Below the pieces are notes generated by a model that saw only the letters and a list, made by a program, of their open reading frames with translations, was not told the origin of the DNA and searched no databases. Below are positions 23,401-62,885 of a stretch of 64,000 bases of DNA, piece after piece. Each line of letters begins with the position of its first letter. Position 1 is the first letter of the stretch. Origin of the DNA: Cytophagaceae bacterium ABcell3 (GTDB taxonomy: Bacteria; Bacteroidota; Bacteroidia; Cytophagales; Cytophagaceae); NCBI GenBank assembly GCA_030913385.1, contig CP133159.1, positions 4,443,001 to 4,507,000 on the forward strand. Direction: 5' to 3'. Made by a program: the position numbers and the translations under genes.

Positions 23401-25885
23401 GGTCATTGTTCCTTCCATACAACGTCATCTGAACCGGATAGTAGATGCAAAAATTGAATTAAGAAATGAACTCTTCTACGAACATGTGGCTCCGGAAATT
23501 GCTGCTGCTTTTATTGAGAAGTTAAAAATTGAAGCTGTTGTTCAAAGCGGAACAGACGGGGTAGAGTCTGAACAAATCCTTCCACTGTCAACAACGATGG
23601 TAACAAGATTTGAAAACGGGAAGCCATTGTTTGTTTCATTAAGACAAAATGGATCTATCGGCCCTTTAAGAAGATCCGAAATTAAGGCTGTAGTAATCCG
23701 GAAAGCATCAGGCATTATGCTACAGAATGGAGAATCGCTGGCTGATGTCCTCCCTGTCAATTCCCAGATTATGATCACCTCAGGCACAATCCGTTATAAT
23801 ACGGCACATTTTTCCGGACATTTGTTCCGAAACTCCAATATAATGGATGATCTGGTGGGATACTCAGGCCTGAGTAATGACCGGGAAAAAGTAAGAATTG
23901 CAACACCACTTTCGCGAGCCGAAATGCGCAACCCCAGAAACGAGGATCTTGAAATAGCAAGTGCACTGCAGGACCATCTTAATGATAACGTTGAAAAATA
24001 CCATAGTGCCATCTGGATGAACATGAGCGCAGAAAGAAGATTTATGTTCCTGGATGGTATCAGAATAACAGATTATTCTGATGTTGAAAATTATCCTCAG
24101 GGAGTCATCAGAAGTGTGGCATCTGTAGTTGAAAACAGGGTAATCGGAATTATCGGCAACAACCTTGTTATGCCTGTAGCACCTGGCTTCCGGCTTGATC
24201 CAAATACACGTGGCAAGGAAGTAGACCTGTTTTCCCTGTATCAGCCTCTTACTCCAGCAGCCCCTGCCAGTGTCAGCATTCCTACCAAAGGAGTTTATGC
24301 AGAAGCTGTGATGGGGCAATGCAATAGCTGTGAAAAAATTAATGAGGACCGGTTCTGGCGGTGGAGCGAAGAGCCAATTCCACATAGTCCGACACCGATC
24401 ATGCCTGTTAGCACCGATACCCGCCGTACAACTCCGGCAGATACTGACGTAACCTCTTTCCCGAACCCGATGGTCAATATCCAGAACGCCCCACAAGCAC
24501 CCAATCCACAAGGTTTCGGCGCAGCTGCAGAACTGTTGGGCAATGCTTCCTTCCGCGACATTACCGGTCTGCAGGGCAATCAGGCTAATGCTATTAAGGC
24601 ACTTCAGGCAACTATGGAAGCAGCTCAGAAATTCGGCACTCAGGCTTCGGGTCTCACAGCACTGGGCGCTCAGCTTGACGCAATCAGGGAGGCAAGGAGA
24701 CACAACATGATTCCGGACGACCTGACGCGTGAACTTTCGGAAAAAGCTATCAGAAACTTTTATGAGGAAAAGCCAGACCAGACAAACTCAGGTTTAAATA
24801 ATATTAAGAGACTTCAGGAAATGATAGAGAGAAACGATATTCCCGGAGATATAGGACAAGAGCTTATGAAAAACCTGACGAAGTCTATGCATAAAAATGG
24901 CGGCACTGAAAACCTGCGGGACCTACTGACAACAGGCGGAGAAAAGATTCCTTCTGTAGGCTCTTTTTCAGCAGAAACAACAACACCTGAGGGCAAACTG
25001 ACAAAACTCACCATGACAGGTTCCTCTCCAACAAGTAGCTTTTTTCACCAACAAAAAATCAATCAACTGGTAGAATGTTTCCAAAGAAACCTGCACCTGA
25101 TAAAAACTAATGCCAATGTTTTAAAAATAGCTTTGGAGGAAGAAAAGGGTTGGACAGATGAAGATGGCAACAAAATAAAAGAAGGCGACAAAGACGACGA
25201 AGGCAATTTTATCATGCTGAACAAATTAACAGACTATTTTAAAGCCATACCAGAAGCAAACCTTTTCGGGCACAACAGCGACCCTGAAGAACACGCAAAA
25301 GAGGCTGCTAAAGACAACAATGCGTGGAGCGCGGCATTTATTTGCTATGTTTTTGCCAAAGCCGGAATTAAGATATCCGATGGATTTGAATTCAGTAACA
25401 GGCATATTACATACATTGTCCATGCCCTTATGAACCGCCTAAATAAAGACCAGGAAAAAATATTCTGGTTGTACAGAGTTGATGAACGGACTCCCCAGCC
25501 AGGTGATCTGGTTTGCGTAAACAGGCCCGGAGGCGGTACCTGGAACTTTAATAATTTGAGAAATGACTTTCTTCAGGAAAATAATGAAGGCAAGTATGAG
25601 ATTAACCCTCCAATTCAGGGCAATTCACATTGTGATATAGTTTTGGGAACAAAGGAAAAAGACGGAGTAAAATATTTAGAAACAATGGGCGGCAATCTAA
25701 GCGATACCATACTCCGGGTAGATGTGAGACTGAATGAAGATGGAAAAATTGACATGGAAACACGTAACGATGAAGGGGAAGTGGAAAACCGCAACTATTT
25801 CGGGATTCTTGGCATTGAGCCATGCAACATAAATTCCATACTTGCAGATCTTTCCGGAGAGTCCTCTCCTGTTATTAAAGCTTAA
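20471..25885 (+). CDS. giant multidomain protein: helix-hairpin-helix, beta-rich repeats, DUF2272 (NlpC/P60-like) C-terminus
   Basis: 1,804 residues, no signal peptide or clear membrane anchor. In order: a ComEA-like helix-hairpin-helix (about 5-65, INKATKKELTSIKGI); three beta-rich modules of about 100 residues around V-x-(S/A)-P-x-G-E (near 164, 260 and 365); a carboxypeptidase-regulatory-like strand region (about 415-480); a CSEC pair near 535; a region with LLYSLPLAPGQKKQIVVFDWER (here abbreviated LPLAPGQKK, about 705); a Gly/Ser-rich stretch (757-800); long helices; a CNSC pair near 1282; a linker rich in Pro, Asn and Gln; and a DUF2272 domain (about 1610-1780) with NAWSAAFICYVF, FSNRHITYI and SHCDIV. 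In NlpC/P60 enzymes the nucleophile is Cys; here that position in WSAAF is Ser. The protein may be exported by a non-Sec route or act in the cell; function unknown. It stands alone with its own terminator. Confidence 0.75.
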   Translation: MPMADKININKATKKELTSIKGIADVTADRILNFREKGGVINSLDDLQKISKIRPNYLNELTDVVDFEDGRDDGNPKKETPSAQDLTVEPLFRIQFPDIPSDEGENPYAGYRVVVGYKLWRSGVAGMFPTSHTKKFSIAPNGIVEVHLTEEVGTYLGKSFDIFVNSPKGEPVYKKTDITLEDSQTIKIDLPFSVNNNLLVKLEKQQGINYNGYTLKAYFYVDRGSSSLDVIKEEFDISFQDEILIKSDPFEGIVEVDLKVMAPNEVLVTRSKYKWKEIEETEEAKQVHISLPRPSGLSYSIQLIVDIDSLENPYLDHSLIVLYNILRKENLQLIRRIEERFPIDSNGLSHVNIEHYGLVQELELEVKAPAGEVIGRKTLKATESDDDGKVQVKVLPRKLAGAEGIHTIPERPEKITGRLIDAQGKKKLENIQIIIYASTVEGPAEKDFFPLQFTRSETEGYFVMDMPKLYFTGAFARIGLSTNNHPTDVPVRLEKDRVWLMKDEKAVMEEKLFFPANMILVVQAEDEEKKKETCSECETQNYLRPKKAVDEFSFYTVVRTTEPDIQGYTFEEDGEVSVQNIIDIVPLASDRTHEEVSIPASYLHRSIRKNVLMKHVNNKKGLTLTTLKKALNESNAQKLREKIKPRSENRAIGRHNLNLNTSIDWDKDPTIYQATSIAHGHLLQYKQEWLNDGYSTGDLLYSLPLAPGQKKQIVVFDWERRESATRRESLDYQESLYNSLSRDRDVNEVVQGSLRENIRGGSSARTSSASGGFGLGFVAGPVGGLLGVSGGSSKASSTAWQDSSRHTTLSDLQQLRDRTLQSANAIRSQRASVITTATQGERFSAETETVANYNRCHSLTIQYFEVLRHLKVQQRLASVQECLFIPLMISHFDYQKILRWQESLSSSINRRLQRGFGAIQRIENDYEGSDLPENRFADDNLEYLEGGIYIKFEIPAPQDLSILEEKEELLKALERFMVIVPSIQRHLNRIVDAKIELRNELFYEHVAPEIAAAFIEKLKIEAVVQSGTDGVESEQILPLSTTMVTRFENGKPLFVSLRQNGSIGPLRRSEIKAVVIRKASGIMLQNGESLADVLPVNSQIMITSGTIRYNTAHFSGHLFRNSNIMDDLVGYSGLSNDREKVRIATPLSRAEMRNPRNEDLEIASALQDHLNDNVEKYHSAIWMNMSAERRFMFLDGIRITDYSDVENYPQGVIRSVASVVENRVIGIIGNNLVMPVAPGFRLDPNTRGKEVDLFSLYQPLTPAAPASVSIPTKGVYAEAVMGQCNSCEKINEDRFWRWSEEPIPHSPTPIMPVSTDTRRTTPADTDVTSFPNPMVNIQNAPQAPNPQGFGAAAELLGNASFRDITGLQGNQANAIKALQATMEAAQKFGTQASGLTALGAQLDAIREARRHNMIPDDLTRELSEKAIRNFYEEKPDQTNSGLNNIKRLQEMIERNDIPGDIGQELMKNLTKSMHKNGGTENLRDLLTTGGEKIPSVGSFSAETTTPEGKLTKLTMTGSSPTSSFFHQQKINQLVECFQRNLHLIKTNANVLKIALEEEKGWTDEDGNKIKEGDKDDEGNFIMLNKLTDYFKAIPEANLFGHNSDPEEHAKEAAKDNNAWSAAFICYVFAKAGIKISDGFEFSNRHITYIVHALMNRLNKDQEKIFWLYRVDERTPQPGDLVCVNRPGGGTWNFNNLRNDFLQENNEGKYEINPPIQGNSHCDIVLGTKEKDGVKYLETMGGNLSDTILRVDVRLNEDGKIDMETRNDEGEVENRNYFGILGIEPCNINSILADLSGESSPVIKA

Positions 25886-52770: not shown

Positions 52771-53955
52771 TTAAACCATTTCAATAATAAACATTCTTGG
52801 TGTAAAGCACAAGATAAAAACAATAAGTGCAAACCATCCCAAGATTTTCCTTTTAGGACTTAAAGGCTGTTCTATTAAAGCAGGTGGGTGGTAAACACCT
52901 AAAAAGCGGCCTACCACAAAAGCGAAGACAAACCATCCACTTGATACATTTACATCATGGATAAGCAATTCAACCACAAGTTGCAACAGGAAAACAATAA
53001 AGGCATTCATGAATTTTACTTGTGTAGGCGCATGGAGCCTGGAAAACAGAAGGTAAAGAAACGGCAGGTAAATAACCGAGAAGGTAACAAAACTTCCCGT
53101 ATCTTCGAAGGCGTTTCCAAATGGATTGTTCTGAAAAATCCCCAAGCCAGCAAAAACAACAAAGGCAAAAAACAGCCAAGGTGCATATAAATAATGACGC
53201 CTTCCCCCTATGAGGCCATAAAGGATATGCCCTCCGTCTAACTGCCCAATAGGTAATAGATTTAAAGCGGTAAACAATAAGGCTAAATAGCCTGCAAAAA
53301 GATAAGGGTAGTGCATTAGCTCAAACCTATTCGGCACAAGCGAAGGGTCAGGAGCAACAAAACGTGTAAAGAACTCAAAAATCAAATTACTACCGACGCT
53401 TATCAAGGGGATCTCACCTTCGTAGTCAATATCACGAGTTAAATGTTCCCTATCATATACATATTTCTCATAATCTTCTCCATATTGTGCGTATTCTGGA
53501 TGTATTTCAAAAATATACTCCATGGGTGGCAAATTTGTAAACCCATACCACAACAGTATCATGGCGGCCACAAAACCTGCCAAAGGCCCAGCAATTCCTA
53601 TATCAAATATCTGCTTTGAACTGACTAAGCGACTCTTGATTTTAATAAATGCCCCAAAAGTGCCTATTGAATTCGCAAAGCCAAGAAAAAAGGGCAAATA
53701 ATAAGGCAGCGAAACTTTCACTTTGTACAGTCTGGCAGCTATATAGTGTCCAAACTCATGAACAGTAAGGATACCGAGAAAAGGAATAGAGAAATGTAGC
53801 CCCCTTTGAAAATGTTCCCAGGTAAACCACTCCCCTAAACCAGGCAGTAGCAACGTACGCCCAAAAATCCACTCAGCACCTGCAAGGGTAGTAGTAAAAA
53901 AAGTTAGTACAAGAAGAAATAGTTGAAGTATCCAGGTTTTATGCTTTTTTTGCAT
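52771..53955 (-). CDS. site-2 protease family (M50) metalloprotease
   Basis: 394 residues, multi-pass membrane protein. The zinc motif is H66-E67-F-G-H70 (VHEFGHYIAARLYK), and the second ligand motif LLPIGQLDGGH lies near residue 238. It cleaves transmembrane segments, usually in regulated proteolysis of anti-sigma factors. A loop of about 90 residues (about 140-215) between helices contains an acidic segment. Its start overlaps the HAD phosphatase gene by 17 nt, so the two are co-translated. Confidence 0.9.
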   Translation of the reverse strand: MQKKHKTWILQLFLLVLTFFTTTLAGAEWIFGRTLLLPGLGEWFTWEHFQRGLHFSIPFLGILTVHEFGHYIAARLYKVKVSLPYYLPFFLGFANSIGTFGAFIKIKSRLVSSKQIFDIGIAGPLAGFVAAMILLWYGFTNLPPMEYIFEIHPEYAQYGEDYEKYVYDREHLTRDIDYEGEIPLISVGSNLIFEFFTRFVAPDPSLVPNRFELMHYPYLFAGYLALLFTALNLLPIGQLDGGHILYGLIGGRRHYLYAPWLFFAFVVFAGLGIFQNNPFGNAFEDTGSFVTFSVIYLPFLYLLFSRLHAPTQVKFMNAFIVFLLQLVVELLIHDVNVSSGWFVFAFVVGRFLGVYHPPALIEQPLSPKRKILGWFALIVFILCFTPRMFIIEMV

Positions 53956-57114: not shown

Positions 57115-57148
57115 AATCCCTGTCAGATTATAAAACCTGACAGGGATT
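57115..57148. terminator. bidirectional hairpin terminator
   Basis: AATCCCTGTCAG and CTGACAGGGATT form a 12-bp stem with a 10-nt loop. On the minus strand it is followed by TTTTAATTTTA, so it could end the transcript of the small peptide gene at 57147-57251 as well as that of the DUF2267 gene. Confidence 0.75.
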
Positions 57149-57251
57149 ATCCCTTCCTCTTTCTGATTAGAGCTATAATACCATAAGCTGTTACCCCTAG
57201 CAGAAGAGCCAAATAAAATTCCGCATTCAGGTTAACAGTAACTATATCCAT
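57147..57251 (-). CDS. candidate 34-aa single-pass membrane peptide
   Basis: A short frame (ATG at 57251) encoding a peptide with a polar start (MDIVTVNLNAEFY), one hydrophobic segment (LALLLGVTAYGIIALI) and a basic end (RKRKG). The charge pattern (hydrophobic then positive) is typical of small inner membrane proteins. Its stop codon overlaps a terminator hairpin with a T-rich tail on the same strand, and it lies directly downstream of the SMC operon (150 bp), so it could be transcribed from its own promoter or from that operon. Homologues are not known to me. Confidence 0.4.
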   Translation of the reverse strand: MDIVTVNLNAEFYLALLLGVTAYGIIALIRKRKG

Positions 57252-57401
57252 CAAAAATGAGTCAAACCTTTATCGTATCATTCAAACAATTGTACCATCA
57301 AAAAACCTCCTCCTTCAATACGCCGTCAGGTTTTATGAACGCTGACGGGTATTGGTCCATCATCCCATTATCAAATCATCGCATCATCGTATCATCAAAA
57401 A

Positions 57402-60400
57402 TCAAGGCTCCACATTCATCGTCAGCAAAGGAATAACCCTGACGCTTCCGCTGGCGGTTTTCTTGAACTTATACGTATAATTGTAATGCGTTTCCAGCTT
57501 GCTCTCGTTCGGAAGACCATTTATCAGATAAATATTCCTTTCCTCGGCAAAGGCAATTAATTCCTTAAGATAATTGGCTGAAATCTGTCCCACCTCGTCA
57601 ATGATACAGTGTACGTGGAAATCCACTGCCGTTCTTTCTGTAGATTCCTTAATGAAGACATTGAGCAGGGTAATATATATAACCGCCTTCACCAGCATAT
57701 CCGTACCCGTAGAGCCCACCTTATCGATTTTCTCAATCCAGCCGGTATCGTTTTTACCCTCCTTGATACGGAACTTCAGTTCAAACAAGTCCTGAACCCT
57801 GATTTCCTCCTTATGCTCCTCCGCAATCGTGTGCAGCAGGTCATTCAGCAGCTCCACCGACTGCTTGTCAATGGCAGACTTAGACTTGCTGTCGAGGTTG
57901 AAAAGGTTGGTTTCGCCATAAGAAAACGGATTCTGTTCACGGAAATCCGCAATTTTCTGTAGTTTCCGCAACACCTTATTTTCACTATCCTCAGAGCGCA
58001 GCTTGATAAACTCAATAAGCTTAGAGCTTTCAAAAGAAGCCTTTCCAAAGTCCGCTTCCATCTTGCTCACCATCCGGTTAATGCGGCCTTTGTTTTCCGT
58101 CAGCGTCTTTACCTTGGTGGCAATGGCATCTATGAGCATGCCGTGACTTTTAGCCACTTCCGCTATTGAAGTCTGTATTTTATTTTCATTATAAAAGTCC
58201 TGCAACTGACCGGCAAAGCGCTCATATTCCGAATCGCCCGCACTGTGCGACAGTTTAAAGTTGAAGTGATTGTCCGGCCTGAACCTGCCCGCATACTCCG
58301 TAACGTGGTTCCTGAACACCCTGAACTGCGTATGAAATTCTGTATCATTGGCCTGCAACTGTGTGCAAAGGTCAATCACCGACGATGCAGAAGGGGTTGC
58401 CTCAGCTAATTCCAGAATGTGCTTCAAACGGTCGTACAAGGAGATGGTTTTAAACCGCTTTTCGAAATAATCAAACCCCTCGTTGCACTTTCTTATTTCG
58501 TCCGCTATTACCTGTCTGCCCTCCTGAAGGTTATGTTTCCGTTTGTCATATTTCAGCTGCTCCGACTTTTTCTGTGCCTCTACCTCCTCGCCCAGATAGT
58601 CCAGCTTTTCTCTGCGTTCGTTAAACTCCTCCAGCCTGTCAAACAACTCACGCTTGTCTTTAAGGTAATCGCTGACCAGTGTCGCATTTTTCTCAATCTG
58701 CTCAAGGCGCGACTGAAGCTGGTTTATTTCTTCTTTCAGCTTATGCAGCACCGAATCATCCACCCCTTTCTTCTTAAGCTGTTCTTTCTTCTCCTTCTCA
58801 AGACGGGCTTTGCGCTCGGCAAGCTCATTAAGTTTATCCTCACGCTGGTGCGAAAGCTCGCCGGCCTTCTCCTCAAATTTTCTCCGTACCAAAACCAGTT
58901 TTTCATTGTATGACTTTTCAAGAGAGGCAAGCTTGCTGTCAAACTGCGCCTTTACTTCATTGAGAAGCCCCTTTATTCTTTTTACTTCCCCCTGCAAGTC
59001 CTGTTCTTCCACATAGAGAGCAGTGGTATCTTCTTCCTTCTGCTTCTGAGCCTTCTGGTTCCAGTCCATCAGGTCAAGCTCCGCCTGCTTCTCCTTTTTC
59101 TCATCCTGCTCCTCTTCATACTCCATGCGGGAAATTTCATTCTTCAACTCCCCGATTTTCTTACCGGTTGCCGAAAGGGCAGCGTAAAGCTCCTTGTCCT
59201 TTGCCTCCTGCCATTCCTGAAACTCATCATTGAGCTGGTTTATATAGTCCAGATATTCAGATTTTTCTTTTTCAAGCTCCTCCAGCGACCGGCAGTGCAC
59301 CTCCACTTCGCCCAAATCAAGCTTAAGGCCATAAAGGGTCTGTACCGCCTCCTGCACTTTCTCAGGCTTCAGGTCTTTTCGGTAAAGCAGTTCTTCGTTC
59401 ACCACCTTACCTATCGTCTGGTACCAGTCTGGATAGTTGTCCTGCAAATAACCGAACAGTGCATCCTGATAAATAGAGAGTTTGCTTTCTATTTCCTTTA
59501 CAAGGTCTTCCGTAGCAATTATCTCCTCCCTGTTTTGGGCTTTTTTGCCTTCTGTTTCCAGACGGTGCTTTTCTTTCAGGTGGTCGGCCTGCTGCTGGAA
59601 TGAAGCAATTTTATTGTTGTTTATCTCAAAGGCAGATTTCCGCTGTCTTTTCCGCTCACGTATTTCATCCAACTGTTTTTTTATGATGGATATTTCTGCT
59701 TTAAAATAAACCTTGTTCTTGACATCCTTTATTTTGTAATTAACCTCCCGAAGCTGAATTTCTGCTGCGTTCAGTTCTTCCCGATAGCCTTCCGTAGCTT
59801 CCGTATGCTGTTCACGTAAGTCATCCTTTTCCCGTTGCAGGTCTTCCTTCAGTTTTGCCTTATCTTTCTGGAACTGCTTATCCAGTTCCAGCCCCTGCTC
59901 CTTTATAAGGGTAACAAAGTCACGTTTTTCGTTTTCCAGCGATTCAAACCGCACTTTAAACTGGAGTTCGGTATCTCTGAAGCCGGCAGTCAGCGTCAGG
60001 TATTCCTCTTCACGGGCTTTCAGCGAGCTCATCAGCGAAGCCTTTGTTTCGGCCAGCTTCATCAGCTCATGAATATTTTTCTGGTCGTACTCCTTCTGCT
60101 TTTTCTCCGCCTCCCGTATTTTGGCTTTTACCACACCCCGCTCTTCATTTATTTCTCCAAGCCTTTCCTGAAACACCCGCTCCTTTTCCCTGAACTCCAC
60201 ACGCATCTGTCCCAAAATTTCATCTTTTTCCGCAAGCTCCTTCTCCAGAATCTCCTTCTGCCCTTCCGTATATTTCAAAGCACCACCCAGTTCCGCCGCC
60301 AACGAACGCTGCGTCTGCTTCAGGTTCTTAATCCGCTGAAAGTTATCTTTGATAAGCTCTCCCCGCTGCACATTGTCCTTCCTGAAAAAAGCCTCAATAT

Positions 60401-61091
60401 CCTGATACCTTTCGCTGAACTGCCTAAGCTGCCTTTCAATGGTCTTCAGCTCGATGGTAGAGTGCTTTGTGTTAATGGAATTGGCAATACAGTCTTTTAC
60501 AAACTCCGAACGTATTTCTGATTCCGAACTCAGGAAAATGGAAGTAATAGCCAGAGGAATGTTCTGGTACATGCTATTACCTTTTAGAAGGGCGTATTTC
60601 CTGTACCTTTTGTCAGGGTCAGCCCCATAGATAATATTACGGTACCGCTCGTAGGTCTCTATCTGGTCAGAATAGTCAATTTTCTGCTCATTAAACCTTC
60701 CAAGAACCTCCTTAATAAGCAGGGCCTCTTTATTGGCAATGTACAATTCAGGGTCAAAGGCACTGTTTACAAAGCGGAAGCAAATCTTGTTGTTCCGGTA
60801 TACCATCACATGAAAAAAGCCTTCTTCCGTAGCTATTTCATAGATAATGTACGAGTTTGGATACTGAAAATAGTAGTCCTCAAAAGAGCGCTGAGAACTG
60901 GAAATCCCCAATCCGCGGGTGTTGGCACTGTAAAAGAACAGGATTGCCCGCTGCAAGGTGGTTTTTCCAAGGTTATTAGTGCCCACAAAACAGGTATTAC
61001 CGGCAATTTCCGCTGCCGAATAATCCGAGTTGGCAATATTTATAAATACAATTCTATTGAGAATCCGTCTTCTTTTCTCCATCTTCTTCAA
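57402..61091 (-). CDS. SMC-like ATPase (MksB / Wadjet JetC type)
   Basis: 1,229 residues. The head is split between the ends, as in SMC/MukB proteins. Walker A GTNNLGKTTLQRAI lies near residue 34. The signature position is GSTGTDMLVKAVIY (about 1124), in place of LSGGQ, and Walker B is HCIIDEVGQIS (about 1162). A coiled coil spans about 255-930 with an interruption near 535-620 (FGYLQDNYPDWYQTIGKV) that may be the hinge. The gene overlaps the KITE gene by 38 nt, and a shorter start at 61082 is possible. This is the motor of an SMC-kleisin-KITE complex that extrudes or clamps DNA. No JetD/MksG nuclease gene is beside it, which differs from Wadjet anti-plasmid systems. Confidence 0.82.
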   Translation of the reverse strand: MKKMEKRRRILNRIVFINIANSDYSAAEIAGNTCFVGTNNLGKTTLQRAILFFYSANTRGLGISSSQRSFEDYYFQYPNSYIIYEIATEEGFFHVMVYRNNKICFRFVNSAFDPELYIANKEALLIKEVLGRFNEQKIDYSDQIETYERYRNIIYGADPDKRYRKYALLKGNSMYQNIPLAITSIFLSSESEIRSEFVKDCIANSINTKHSTIELKTIERQLRQFSERYQDIEAFFRKDNVQRGELIKDNFQRIKNLKQTQRSLAAELGGALKYTEGQKEILEKELAEKDEILGQMRVEFREKERVFQERLGEINEERGVVKAKIREAEKKQKEYDQKNIHELMKLAETKASLMSSLKAREEEYLTLTAGFRDTELQFKVRFESLENEKRDFVTLIKEQGLELDKQFQKDKAKLKEDLQREKDDLREQHTEATEGYREELNAAEIQLREVNYKIKDVKNKVYFKAEISIIKKQLDEIRERKRQRKSAFEINNNKIASFQQQADHLKEKHRLETEGKKAQNREEIIATEDLVKEIESKLSIYQDALFGYLQDNYPDWYQTIGKVVNEELLYRKDLKPEKVQEAVQTLYGLKLDLGEVEVHCRSLEELEKEKSEYLDYINQLNDEFQEWQEAKDKELYAALSATGKKIGELKNEISRMEYEEEQDEKKEKQAELDLMDWNQKAQKQKEEDTTALYVEEQDLQGEVKRIKGLLNEVKAQFDSKLASLEKSYNEKLVLVRRKFEEKAGELSHQREDKLNELAERKARLEKEKKEQLKKKGVDDSVLHKLKEEINQLQSRLEQIEKNATLVSDYLKDKRELFDRLEEFNERREKLDYLGEEVEAQKKSEQLKYDKRKHNLQEGRQVIADEIRKCNEGFDYFEKRFKTISLYDRLKHILELAEATPSASSVIDLCTQLQANDTEFHTQFRVFRNHVTEYAGRFRPDNHFNFKLSHSAGDSEYERFAGQLQDFYNENKIQTSIAEVAKSHGMLIDAIATKVKTLTENKGRINRMVSKMEADFGKASFESSKLIEFIKLRSEDSENKVLRKLQKIADFREQNPFSYGETNLFNLDSKSKSAIDKQSVELLNDLLHTIAEEHKEEIRVQDLFELKFRIKEGKNDTGWIEKIDKVGSTGTDMLVKAVIYITLLNVFIKESTERTAVDFHVHCIIDEVGQISANYLKELIAFAEERNIYLINGLPNESKLETHYNYTYKFKKTASGSVRVIPLLTMNVEP

Positions 61092-61608
61092 TGGTTATCA
61101 GCATTATCACCTGTTCCAGGTAATGAATAGCGTCCATTACTTTATAAGTTTCCTCATCTTCTTTTTCAAAAAAACCAGCCGAGCAAAAACTGTCTGCCGC
61201 CTCCGTCACCTTGTCTGCCAGTTTCTCCTTGCGGCTCAGCGCAAATATCTTCTGCTTCAGGCGCTCGTTGGCATAGCATTCCTCGGCCACCTTGGTCACA
61301 CGGTAGCGCGTACCGGGCACAGGCTTGGAGTCCAGACAGGAAAAGAAATCCAGCAGGTCTATAAAAGAAGCCAGTTGCTCAAGCTTCTTCTCCAGCACCA
61401 TATTCTGCTCACCCTTCTGACTGAAATAGTAGTAATTGTAGCCACTCTCCAGCGTATAGCCAATATGGCCGAAGTACTCTTTCAATACCCGAAAATTCTC
61501 CTCGTCGTGCAGCACATCAAACAGCTTACCGTTGCTCCCGTTGGAGCTTATAAACTGCCCTTTGCTCAGCAGGCCGAATATTTCCGCTGTCTGTTTAGGT
61601 ATATTCAT
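61054..61608 (-). CDS. KITE subunit (MksE / JetB type)
   Basis: 184 residues with two winged-helix-like domains, the layout of MukE, MksE and JetB. The segment YTLESGYNYYYFSQKGE is typical of the group, followed by KKLEQLASFIDLLDFF and a final winged helix (VTEAADSFCSAGFFEKEDEETYKV). KITE proteins dimerise and bridge the kleisin and SMC heads. The start lies 2 nt after the kleisin stop and the end overlaps the SMC gene by 38 nt, so the three genes are tightly coupled. Confidence 0.78.
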   Translation of the reverse strand: MNIPKQTAEIFGLLSKGQFISSNGSNGKLFDVLHDEENFRVLKEYFGHIGYTLESGYNYYYFSQKGEQNMVLEKKLEQLASFIDLLDFFSCLDSKPVPGTRYRVTKVAEECYANERLKQKIFALSRKEKLADKVTEAADSFCSAGFFEKEDEETYKVMDAIHYLEQVIMLITIEEDGEKKTDSQ

Positions 61609-61610
61609 GA

Positions 61611-62816
61611 TTATTTATCAGGATAAATCAGCGCGTAGCCTACCCTTTGTTTTTCATTTTTTTCATTCACAAAAACCAAATTCCCGAACCCTCCGCTAAA
61701 GTCAAGCTTTTTCTCGTGGTCAACCGAAATACCCACATACAGCGAAATTTTCTTCTCAAAACTCAGCTCCCCGACTTCTTTTGGGAAAGGAAACTCCTGA
61801 ATAAAAGAAAACAAATCCCTGTCGCTCTCCATAAATTTTGCCACCAGTGCGTCCACATTCAACTTTACCGACTGCTCATTACCCGATTCCAAATCTTCCG
61901 AAAACTGTCCCGCCGGTTTTCTATCAATCCCCCGAAGCAAGCGCAAGCGCGTAGCCACCTTAGTTGCCAGATAATAACCTTCGTCAGAATACAGGTAGTC
62001 CAGCGAAACCCTCGAGCGGAACCCTGGCTTTTTTCCGAATATCAGCGCCTCCTGCCCCTCGGCCACCTCCACAAAATTGGTCTTATATTTCAGTTCCTCG
62101 TAGTCCTTCAACTCCTTCAGCCGCTGCACCCTGCGGTACACATCTGCCTGATACTGAATTTTATTGATATAGTCGATAATCTGCGACTGAATCTCATTCA
62201 GGTAGTCCCTGTTGCGCACAAGTGTATGCCTCAGGTTCAACACAATAGAGTTCAGTTCCGCATCGATAATGGTATTAAAAAAGCCCTGAGATTCAAAAAT
62301 TATCTGCTCCGTCTCCTTAATCAGGTTAATGATATCGTCCCGCTTCTGCTTGTATTTGTCCAGTTCCTGCAGTTTGATATAGTAGTTCGACTGGTTTTTA
62401 TACGTGTCGTCAATATTCTTGTGCAGCTTAATCACCTCCCGTGAGGTTGTAGAATCAATCTTCTTCAGTGAGCGCTTGATGTTCCGAAGAAAACGGTAGT
62501 TATTGTCAATCCGGTAGTATTTCAGGTTTTCGGTAAGCGATTGTACGTTGTCGTTTATAAAACTGGTAGTCACCTCCCCTATCTCCAGAAACTCCTCCAC
62601 AAAGGTCACAATCCTGTCATCAAGGCTTACGATTTTGTCATTCTCGTGGATAATTTCATAGGCCACCAACTTCTCCAGCCGCTCATCAGACATATCTTCA
62701 CGCGCCAGCAGCTCGTATTTATTGACGGAGTCCTTGTTGCCAAACAATACCTCCACCACTTCTTTATGCTGATAAAGAAGGCCTAACAAGTCCCTAATGT
62801 TAAGTGGCTGTTTCAA
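61611..62816 (-). CDS. kleisin subunit (MksF / JetA type)
   Basis: 401 residues. The N-terminal winged helix (LNIRDLLGLLYQHKEVVEVLFG, here shortened) and the ensuing helices (about 90-260) match the MukF/JetA layout: paired coiled segments (SFINDNVQSLTENLKYYRID; NLRHTLVRNRDYLNEIQSQI) and a C-terminal winged helix (about 300-401). The protein bridges two SMC heads. It is the first gene of the operon; its start is 39 bp downstream of a terminator hairpin that follows hipA. Only the reading of pattern supports the family; pairwise identity would be low. Confidence 0.72.
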   Translation of the reverse strand: MKQPLNIRDLLGLLYQHKEVVEVLFGNKDSVNKYELLAREDMSDERLEKLVAYEIIHENDKIVSLDDRIVTFVEEFLEIGEVTTSFINDNVQSLTENLKYYRIDNNYRFLRNIKRSLKKIDSTTSREVIKLHKNIDDTYKNQSNYYIKLQELDKYKQKRDDIINLIKETEQIIFESQGFFNTIIDAELNSIVLNLRHTLVRNRDYLNEIQSQIIDYINKIQYQADVYRRVQRLKELKDYEELKYKTNFVEVAEGQEALIFGKKPGFRSRVSLDYLYSDEGYYLATKVATRLRLLRGIDRKPAGQFSEDLESGNEQSVKLNVDALVAKFMESDRDLFSFIQEFPFPKEVGELSFEKKISLYVGISVDHEKKLDFSGGFGNLVFVNEKNEKQRVGYALIYPDK

Positions 62817-62854: not shown

Positions 62855-62885
62855 AAAATCCCGCTCATTCTGAAACGGCGGGTCA
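62855..62885 (-). terminator. rho-independent terminator after hipA
   Basis: CCCGC/GCGGG, with the T-run ATTTTTCGTTTTTT following on the minus strand. It should stop transcripts from the HipA-family gene before the SMC operon, or attenuate read-through into it. Confidence 0.7.

Follow-up and report, generated by a model that had tools for sequence, protein, structure and literature searches.

A nuclease-less MksBEF-type SMC operon in Cytophagaceae bacterium ABcell3 and its relatives in Bacteroidota

The window analyzed here, a stretch of 64,000 nucleotides (nt) from Cytophagaceae bacterium ABcell3 (GenBank assembly GCA_030913385.1, contig CP133159.1, positions 4,443,001 to 4,507,000), carries a minus-strand operon for a kleisin, a KITE protein and an ATPase of the structural maintenance of chromosomes (SMC) type. 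We propose, with a probability of roughly 0.6, that the operon encodes an MksBEF-type complex which lost an MksG-type nuclease (DUF7281) and now acts as an accessory condensin beside Smc-ScpAB, as in Pseudomonas aeruginosa. All three subunits are present with intact ATPase motifs, the genome contains no match to the cognate nuclease, and it also encodes Smc (TIGR02168) and ScpB (ScpA was outside all searches reported here). In the proposed mechanism, an ATP-driven MksB dimer would be bridged by the MksF kleisin and the MksE KITE protein. The complex would then capture DNA and extrude loops on the chromosome, alongside the Smc-ScpAB of the host. Loop extrusion is suggested by MukBEF and Wadjet, and the chromosomal role in this cell by P. 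aeruginosa MksBEF and by the family f62 described below.

The three subunits and their ATPase motifs

Calling of open reading frames (ORFs) re-found the three minus-strand genes with the sizes, the 2-nt gap and the 38-nt overlap of the original prediction. The mksF-like kleisin gene (61611..62816, 401 amino acids (aa)) has a TTG start, at the place where relatives start with GTG or ATG. It is followed after 2 nt by the mksE-like KITE gene (61054..61608, 184 aa, ATG start), which overlaps by 38 nt with the mksB-like gene for the SMC ATPase (57402..61091, 1,229 aa, TTG start, in-frame ATG at codon 4). Relatives of MksB, MksE and MksF (29-72% identical) were co-located in most of 80 fetched Bacteroidota loci, which places the operon far beyond chance.

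The KITE protein matched Pfam MksE (PF21980) with an E-value of 7.6e-35 and 121 bits (cut-off 27), and the SMC protein matched PF12128 (DUF3584) with an E-value of 4e-62 over residues 29-1211. Against TIGR02168, the SMC protein reached 12 bits (cut-off 567) and so falls outside the Smc family. The kleisin exceeded the cut-off of no Pfam, NCBIfam or PADLOC family, and no significant sequence family was found for it. Its AlphaFold2 model (mean predicted local distance difference test (pLDDT) 76.3, predicted template modelling (TM) score 0.44) has a winged-helix-like N-terminal part, long helices, a low-confidence linker, and C-terminal helices and strands. The best Foldseek matches of the model were a MukBEF chain (9gm7_C, 1.8e-5) and a JetABCD chain (8q72_E, 2.1e-5), with low whole-chain TM-scores of 0.17-0.28. 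In VIA-align, MukF and JetABC rows were mixed with equally high-ranking generic helical bundles. The protein thus resembles MukF/JetA-type kleisins by structure, at these modest scores, and has no match at the sequence level. Searches of the PDB with the MksF profile gave no matches, and those with the MksB profile gave only chance matches to coiled coils, with no MukB chain among them. The names MukB, MukE and MukF did not occur among the NCBIfam matches, and the similarity of the kleisin is at the level of the fold. Among the PADLOC Jet models, JetB1 alone matched the operon (E 0.0088), and the set was not recognized. Taken together with the operon context, the kleisin model supports the assignment to the SMC-kleisin-KITE group, and the view that the operon encodes a complex of the Mks/Wadjet group was borne out by the PF21980, PF12128 and Foldseek matches. 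MksF is longer in Sporocytophaga and in the Ohtaekwangia group (522-543 aa; L025 7722-9290, L073 7833-9425, L065 7847-9478; L and G numbers are our labels for loci and genomes) than in the window, and the Sporocytophaga protein, as read from its sequence, has a charged C-terminal extension rich in Lys and Glu.

The MksB protein has Walker A at one end and the signature and Walker B at the other end of a long chain, the arrangement of an SMC protein. Walker A (GTNNLGKTT, residues 37-45) lies at 60957..60983, the ABC signature (GSTGTD, residues 1126-1131) at 57699..57716, and the Asp-Glu pair of Walker B (D1165, E1166) at 57594..57599, all on the minus strand. In an alignment of eight MksB sequences, G37, G42, K43 and T45 of Walker A, G1126, S1127, G1129, T1130 and D1131 of the signature, and both Walker B residues were invariant. 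Among 87 MksB ORF pieces from the 80 loci, Walker A was matched in 80, Walker B in 76, and GS[TED]GTD also in 76; some of the 11 pieces without a signature match are fragments. The original prediction had pointed out that GSTGTD differs from LSGGQ. This is true, but the difference is not an anomaly, since GS[TED]GTD is the subfamily's own form. A dead ATPase was considered as the meaning of GSTGTD and ruled out, as the motif is family-wide. The JetC of a type-I-like Wadjet system in the same genome (see below) has SGGQ in its sequence.

The nuclease gene in relatives and in the window genome

A GTDB scan identified 370 MksB relatives, of which the best 80 were kept. In nine of these 80 loci, and also in G053 (L020), mksB is directly followed by a DUF7281-related gene of about 285 aa. 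All four proteins that were run against Pfam passed the DUF7281 cut-off. For one protein, a structure was predicted (mean pLDDT 86.9). Foldseek returned seven matches at E<=0.001, all of them topoisomerase VI-A or Spo11, and JetD or MksG was in none of the 50 rows. VIA-align placed 8b7f_A, "Nuclease from C. glutamicum", first (Z 12.9, root mean square deviation 3.2 over 153), and gave Z 12.2 for topoisomerase VI-A and Z 10.9 for JetD (7til_B). From the title of the row together with PMC10123090, we read 8b7f as MksG. Residues E158, D206 and D208 were invariant in nine sequences, so that DUF7281 combines a predicted fold of the MksG/JetD/topoisomerase VI-A type with conserved acidic residues.

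At the sequence level, the likeness was weak. The PADLOC JetD models matched DUF7281 with E-values of 1e-5 to 4e-4 at best, Pfam JetD_C stayed below its cut-off, the DUF7281 profile found no confident match in the JetD of the window genome and none at all in the PDB, and the N-terminal family DUF3322 was not matched. The JetD of the window genome, used as the query, picked up no JetD-like gene in the 80 loci. DUF7281 is therefore likely the nuclease of this subfamily, and would have nuclease activity, on the strength of its predicted fold and its gene position, not of its sequence. No paper on DUF7281 was found in the literature searched.

In the window, no nuclease gene lies beside the operon, in agreement with the original prediction. 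Downstream of mksB are a 35-codon frame (57147-57254), a terminator-like hairpin (57115..57148, minus strand, 15 pairs with a T-rich tail) and a DUF2267 gene on the plus strand, and upstream is a HipA_C gene. The hairpin, which is probably the end of the operon, follows mksB after about 250 nt, leaving no space for a nuclease gene of about 285 codons. Queries with ten DUF7281 proteins (tblastn) gave only chance-level matches in the window, the best of them (E 0.010) at 24707 and thus distant from the operon, and a single match (E 6.8) in the slice from 54.5 to 57.45 kb. A nuclease concealed near the operon was ruled out by these results.

The original prediction had also considered a nuclease elsewhere in the genome. 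Neither the Pfam model of DUF7281 nor a ten-sequence profile matched the window genome at E<=1. The profile recovered G424 and G053, which are both part of it, and independently G201, and at the same threshold it had no match in nine nuclease-less relatives (G005, G011, G015, G018, G419-G423). It also had no match in G006, where the contig stops after mksB and a 72-aa frame has one Pfam match below the cut-off. The single JetD_C match of the window genome is part of a separate and complete DUF3375-DUF4194-JetC-JetD operon, 1.2 Mb from the window operon. This type-I-like Wadjet JetABCD system (DUF3375, DUF4194, JetC1, JetD; L012 4990-11660, at about 3.285-3.292 Mb of G000:C1) has a guanine-cytosine (GC) content of 44.7%, compared to 39.9% for its 19-kb locus, and its JetD (L012 4990-6186) has 398 aa and is longer than DUF7281. 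Because DUF7281 was not matched and the only JetD_C protein belongs to another complete system, a nuclease elsewhere in the genome is disfavored. The complex is not encoded together with a TOPRIM nuclease of the JetD/MksG type, as it is in JetABCD and MksBEFG.

Replacement of the nuclease by another protein is disfavored as well. The gene that follows mksB in nuclease-less relatives differs from lineage to lineage. In Sporocytophaga, it encodes an M50 membrane protease, either directly after mksB (L015 1661-2626, L016 12050-13015, L018 12244-13209) or one gene further (L025 14535-15512). In the Ohtaekwangia group, it is a short gene that we read as LuxR-like from its sequence, and other relatives have unrelated genes or genes on the opposite strand. 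The window has an M50 protease of its own (52771-53955), which resembles that of Sporocytophaga in the M50 core only (31% over 81 aa). As no gene after mksB is common across lineages, a replacement effector was ruled out.

In order to place the nuclease on a tree, 86 MksB rows were labelled as with DUF7281 (10), without it (65), or unknown (11, where the contig stops no more than 700 nt from mksB). The tree has 83 rows, after removal of three short ones from the unknown class. The window clade (starred set) has 18 rows including the window, 14 without and 4 with nuclease. The latter are Chryseolinea lacunae and three metagenome-assembled genomes (MAGs), in which DUF7281 directly follows mksB and MksB is 53-60% identical to that of the window. 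The sister clade has 56 rows (49 without nuclease, 7 unknown), and the outer group has five nuclease-bearing rows, plus L021 (G050), which sits on a long branch and lacks the gene. Rows L080, which has the nuclease, and L019, which does not, branch in between. The original prediction had named a JetD/MksG gene nearby in close relatives as a finding that would count against it, and in 4 of the 18 clade rows a DUF7281 gene of MksG fold is indeed found after mksB. The subfamily is therefore probably not primitively nuclease-less.

The nuclease label changes at least four times on the tree, by gains or losses; counting losses only, there were 10, or 8 with weak branches merged. The DUF7281 tree (11 rows) shows two groups that are also seen in an MksB tree for ten of those rows, and this agrees better with old co-inheritance than with late capture. 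Several branches are long or weak, and the large tree was a quick one that gave warnings. It is thus an inference that the nuclease was lost and not gained, and that the window copy most likely lost its nuclease gene. An overlap of mksE and mksB was present in all 16 clade relatives, in 3 of 5 outer nuclease-bearing loci, and in the sister clade only in L071 (4 nt). In the Sporocytophaga MAG G018, mksB is split by a frameshift (L018 8528-12215) that may be an assembly error, and in G035 the SMC gene (L019 7736-11413) has no adjoining mksF or mksE, an mksE match being on another contig (G035:C9:231282-231788).

Condensin genes of the sister family f62

The sister clade belongs to one family of Bacteroidia, coded f62. 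MksB of the nuclease-less clade was found in 78 of 81 sampled f62 genomes, and in 62 of 62 with a completeness of 90% or more and a contamination of 5% or less. ScpB was found in 1 of the 81 genomes, as a partial match, and Smc (TIGR02168) in none of the 60 tested. The same Smc search was positive in all 12 ScpB-bearing genomes of the window's order. Because MksB is nearly universal, and ScpB and Smc are so rarely or never found, nuclease-less MksFEB has apparently replaced Smc-ScpAB as the sole condensin of f62. A gene that we read as glycosyltransferase-like or BshC-like from its sequence is retained in 34 of the 44 sister-clade loci that contain mksF and extend more than 2.5 kb upstream of it.

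Three f62 genomes (G201, G366, G394) contain a second MksFEB set followed by DUF7281 (L140, L141 and L142, as against L143 and L144), and the MksB of this set is 29-31% identical to the f62 query L034. The second-set mksB of G201 is split in two. The fetched housekeeping loci of f62 (L143-L146) have no DUF7281; that of G394 is not among them. The f62 pattern is what a change from defense to housekeeping would look like. On a wider scale, repeated loss of an MksG-type nuclease may have turned a Wadjet-like defense complex into a condensin in Bacteroidota, a reading to which we would give slightly less than even odds. The window would hold the accessory stage, and f62 the end stage, in which Smc-ScpAB is replaced, sometimes beside a nuclease-bearing set. 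This wider reading has to face seven genomes of the window's order (G028, G030, G033, G039, G046, G047, G054) in which Smc, ScpB and MksB all went undetected, six of them also without an MksE match. They imply that this family does not make up for every loss of Smc-ScpAB, and that other solutions must exist in Bacteroidota. One of the control genomes, that of Bacteroides ihuae, was not among the controls with an Smc or ScpB match. A 2023 Hi-C study (PMC10197239) found no known condensin in its two Bacteroidetes. If the wider reading is true, the MksFEB family would solve part of this "missing condensin" problem of Bacteroidota.

Known systems, rival explanations and flanking genes

P. aeruginosa MksBEF (PMC7485682) is likewise a kleisin-KITE-SMC complex without nuclease beside Smc-ScpAB, is of sporadic occurrence, and lacks JetD (PMC10586767). 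The window genome is of this type, with three subunits, no nuclease, and Smc and ScpB. The likeness is one of composition rather than sequence comparison, and a chromosomal role was shown in P. aeruginosa only. Unlike P. aeruginosa MksBEF, the Bacteroidota set has an MksG-type gene of its own (DUF7281) in close relatives. MksBEFG and JetABCD (PMC10123090, PMC10586767) have the same three subunits in the order F-E-B, and relatives of the window add the fourth, TOPRIM-fold gene after mksB; the nuclease is present in these systems, whereas the window operon has none. E. coli MukBEF, a nuclease-less condensin of the same group, has apparently taken the place of Smc-ScpAB in the hosts that carry it (PMC7617805, PMC10586767). 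The f62 case looks like an independent parallel, although PDB chains of MukB or MukF were not matched by the MksB and MksF profiles at the sequence level. Smc-ScpAB is the same general machine of SMC, kleisin and KITE, and the genuine Smc and ScpB of the window genome are located elsewhere.

Several members of the Wadjet group are without MksG (PMC7617805), and the nuclease-less kind is thus already known. What appears to be new is the subfamily with DUF7281 as its fourth gene, and the replacement of Smc-ScpAB throughout a family. Neither was found in print, within a partial coverage that excludes Data S1 of PMC7617805, which may include the subfamily. On the question of how chromosome condensins and anti-plasmid SMC machines interconvert, a 2023 review (PMC10586767) regards the evolutionary link between Wadjet and other SMC complexes as unsettled. 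With nuclease-bearing relatives, a family (f62) in which the nuclease-less form is apparently the sole condensin, and single genomes that have both forms, the conversion becomes directly testable. DUF7281 gains a likely function, and its profiles could reveal Wadjet-like systems that PADLOC matches weakly.

Purifying selection acts on nuclease-less MksB. Across 10 pairs of closely related nuclease-less operons, the ratio of nonsynonymous to synonymous substitution rates (dN/dS) was 0.010-0.063 for MksB, 0-0.068 for MksE, and 0.007-0.236 for MksF where computable; two comparisons had no usable value. Several observations weigh against an accessory condensin derived by nuclease loss. Some dS values of the analysis were near saturation, and the pairs exclude the window copy, whose nearest relative (60% identical) is too distant. 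The window operon keeps the mksE-mksB overlap of its clade and of three of the five outer nuclease-bearing loci. In the window's order, MksB has a patchy distribution (9 of 59 genomes, with the window genome counted), and the GC content of the operon is 45.2%, compared to 39.9% for the rest of the window (+5.3 points), with a range of -2.7 to +3.9 in the 16 clade relatives. No experiment on any member of the subfamily was found in the literature searched. The GC deviation, being outside the clade spread, suggests recent acquisition. As Smc and ScpB are present, MksB is patchy and the GC content deviates, the operon gives the impression of an accessory condensin that was acquired, and not of an essential one. 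The housekeeping role considered in the original prediction is thus too strong for the window's lineage, but fits f62.

The patchy distribution, the deviating GC content and the adjoining HipA-family gene would also suit nuclease-independent defense or control of mobile elements. The complex would then be loaded onto DNA that is small and circular or has invaded the cell, and would compact it, silence it or disturb its segregation without cutting, or have it cut by an unrecognized chromosomal nuclease. The nuclease-bearing relatives are Wadjet-like, and for Smc5/6, compaction of circular DNA is named as a possible way of blocking viral genes (PMC10586767, figure legend). This explanation is unlikely in our view, as nuclease-less relatives have no conserved partner gene and f62 shows a housekeeping pattern without Smc. 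It is very doubtful that the operon is a decaying remnant, with nuclease loss as a step to loss of the whole system. Repeated nuclease absence on the tree and the frameshift in G018 mksB, if not an assembly error, would agree with decay, but none of the three window genes is truncated, their motifs are intact, and the MksB dN/dS of nuclease-less relatives is low. Least probable of all is an active Wadjet system in trans, in which MksFEB would use the JetD of the host's own complete JetABCD. No confident profile match was found between MksB and the host's JetC or between DUF7281 and its JetD, which makes shared partners unlikely. Moreover, MksFEB of Sporocytophaga is under purifying selection, and there the MksE profile found mksE only and no JetB; the same profile does find JetB in the window genome, with the reservation that other JetB types could escape it and that Sporocytophaga JetD was outside the search.

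Upstream of the operon is a weak terminator-like site of six pairs (62861-62878). In front of the gene for the HipA_C protein (317 aa) is another gene, of 115 aa, which may encode an N-terminal part of HipA apart from the rest; the pair (L013 10072-11365) extends past the right end of the window. A compact SMC variant of 887-889 aa with an ESTGTD or ESDGTD signature was observed together with a putative kleisin and MksE in two loci (L147 1779-6954, L148 3289-7659). In L147, a weakly DUF7281/JetD_C-like gene, below both cut-offs, lies between mksB and mksF. L148 has none, a possible parallel case of a nuclease-less complex.

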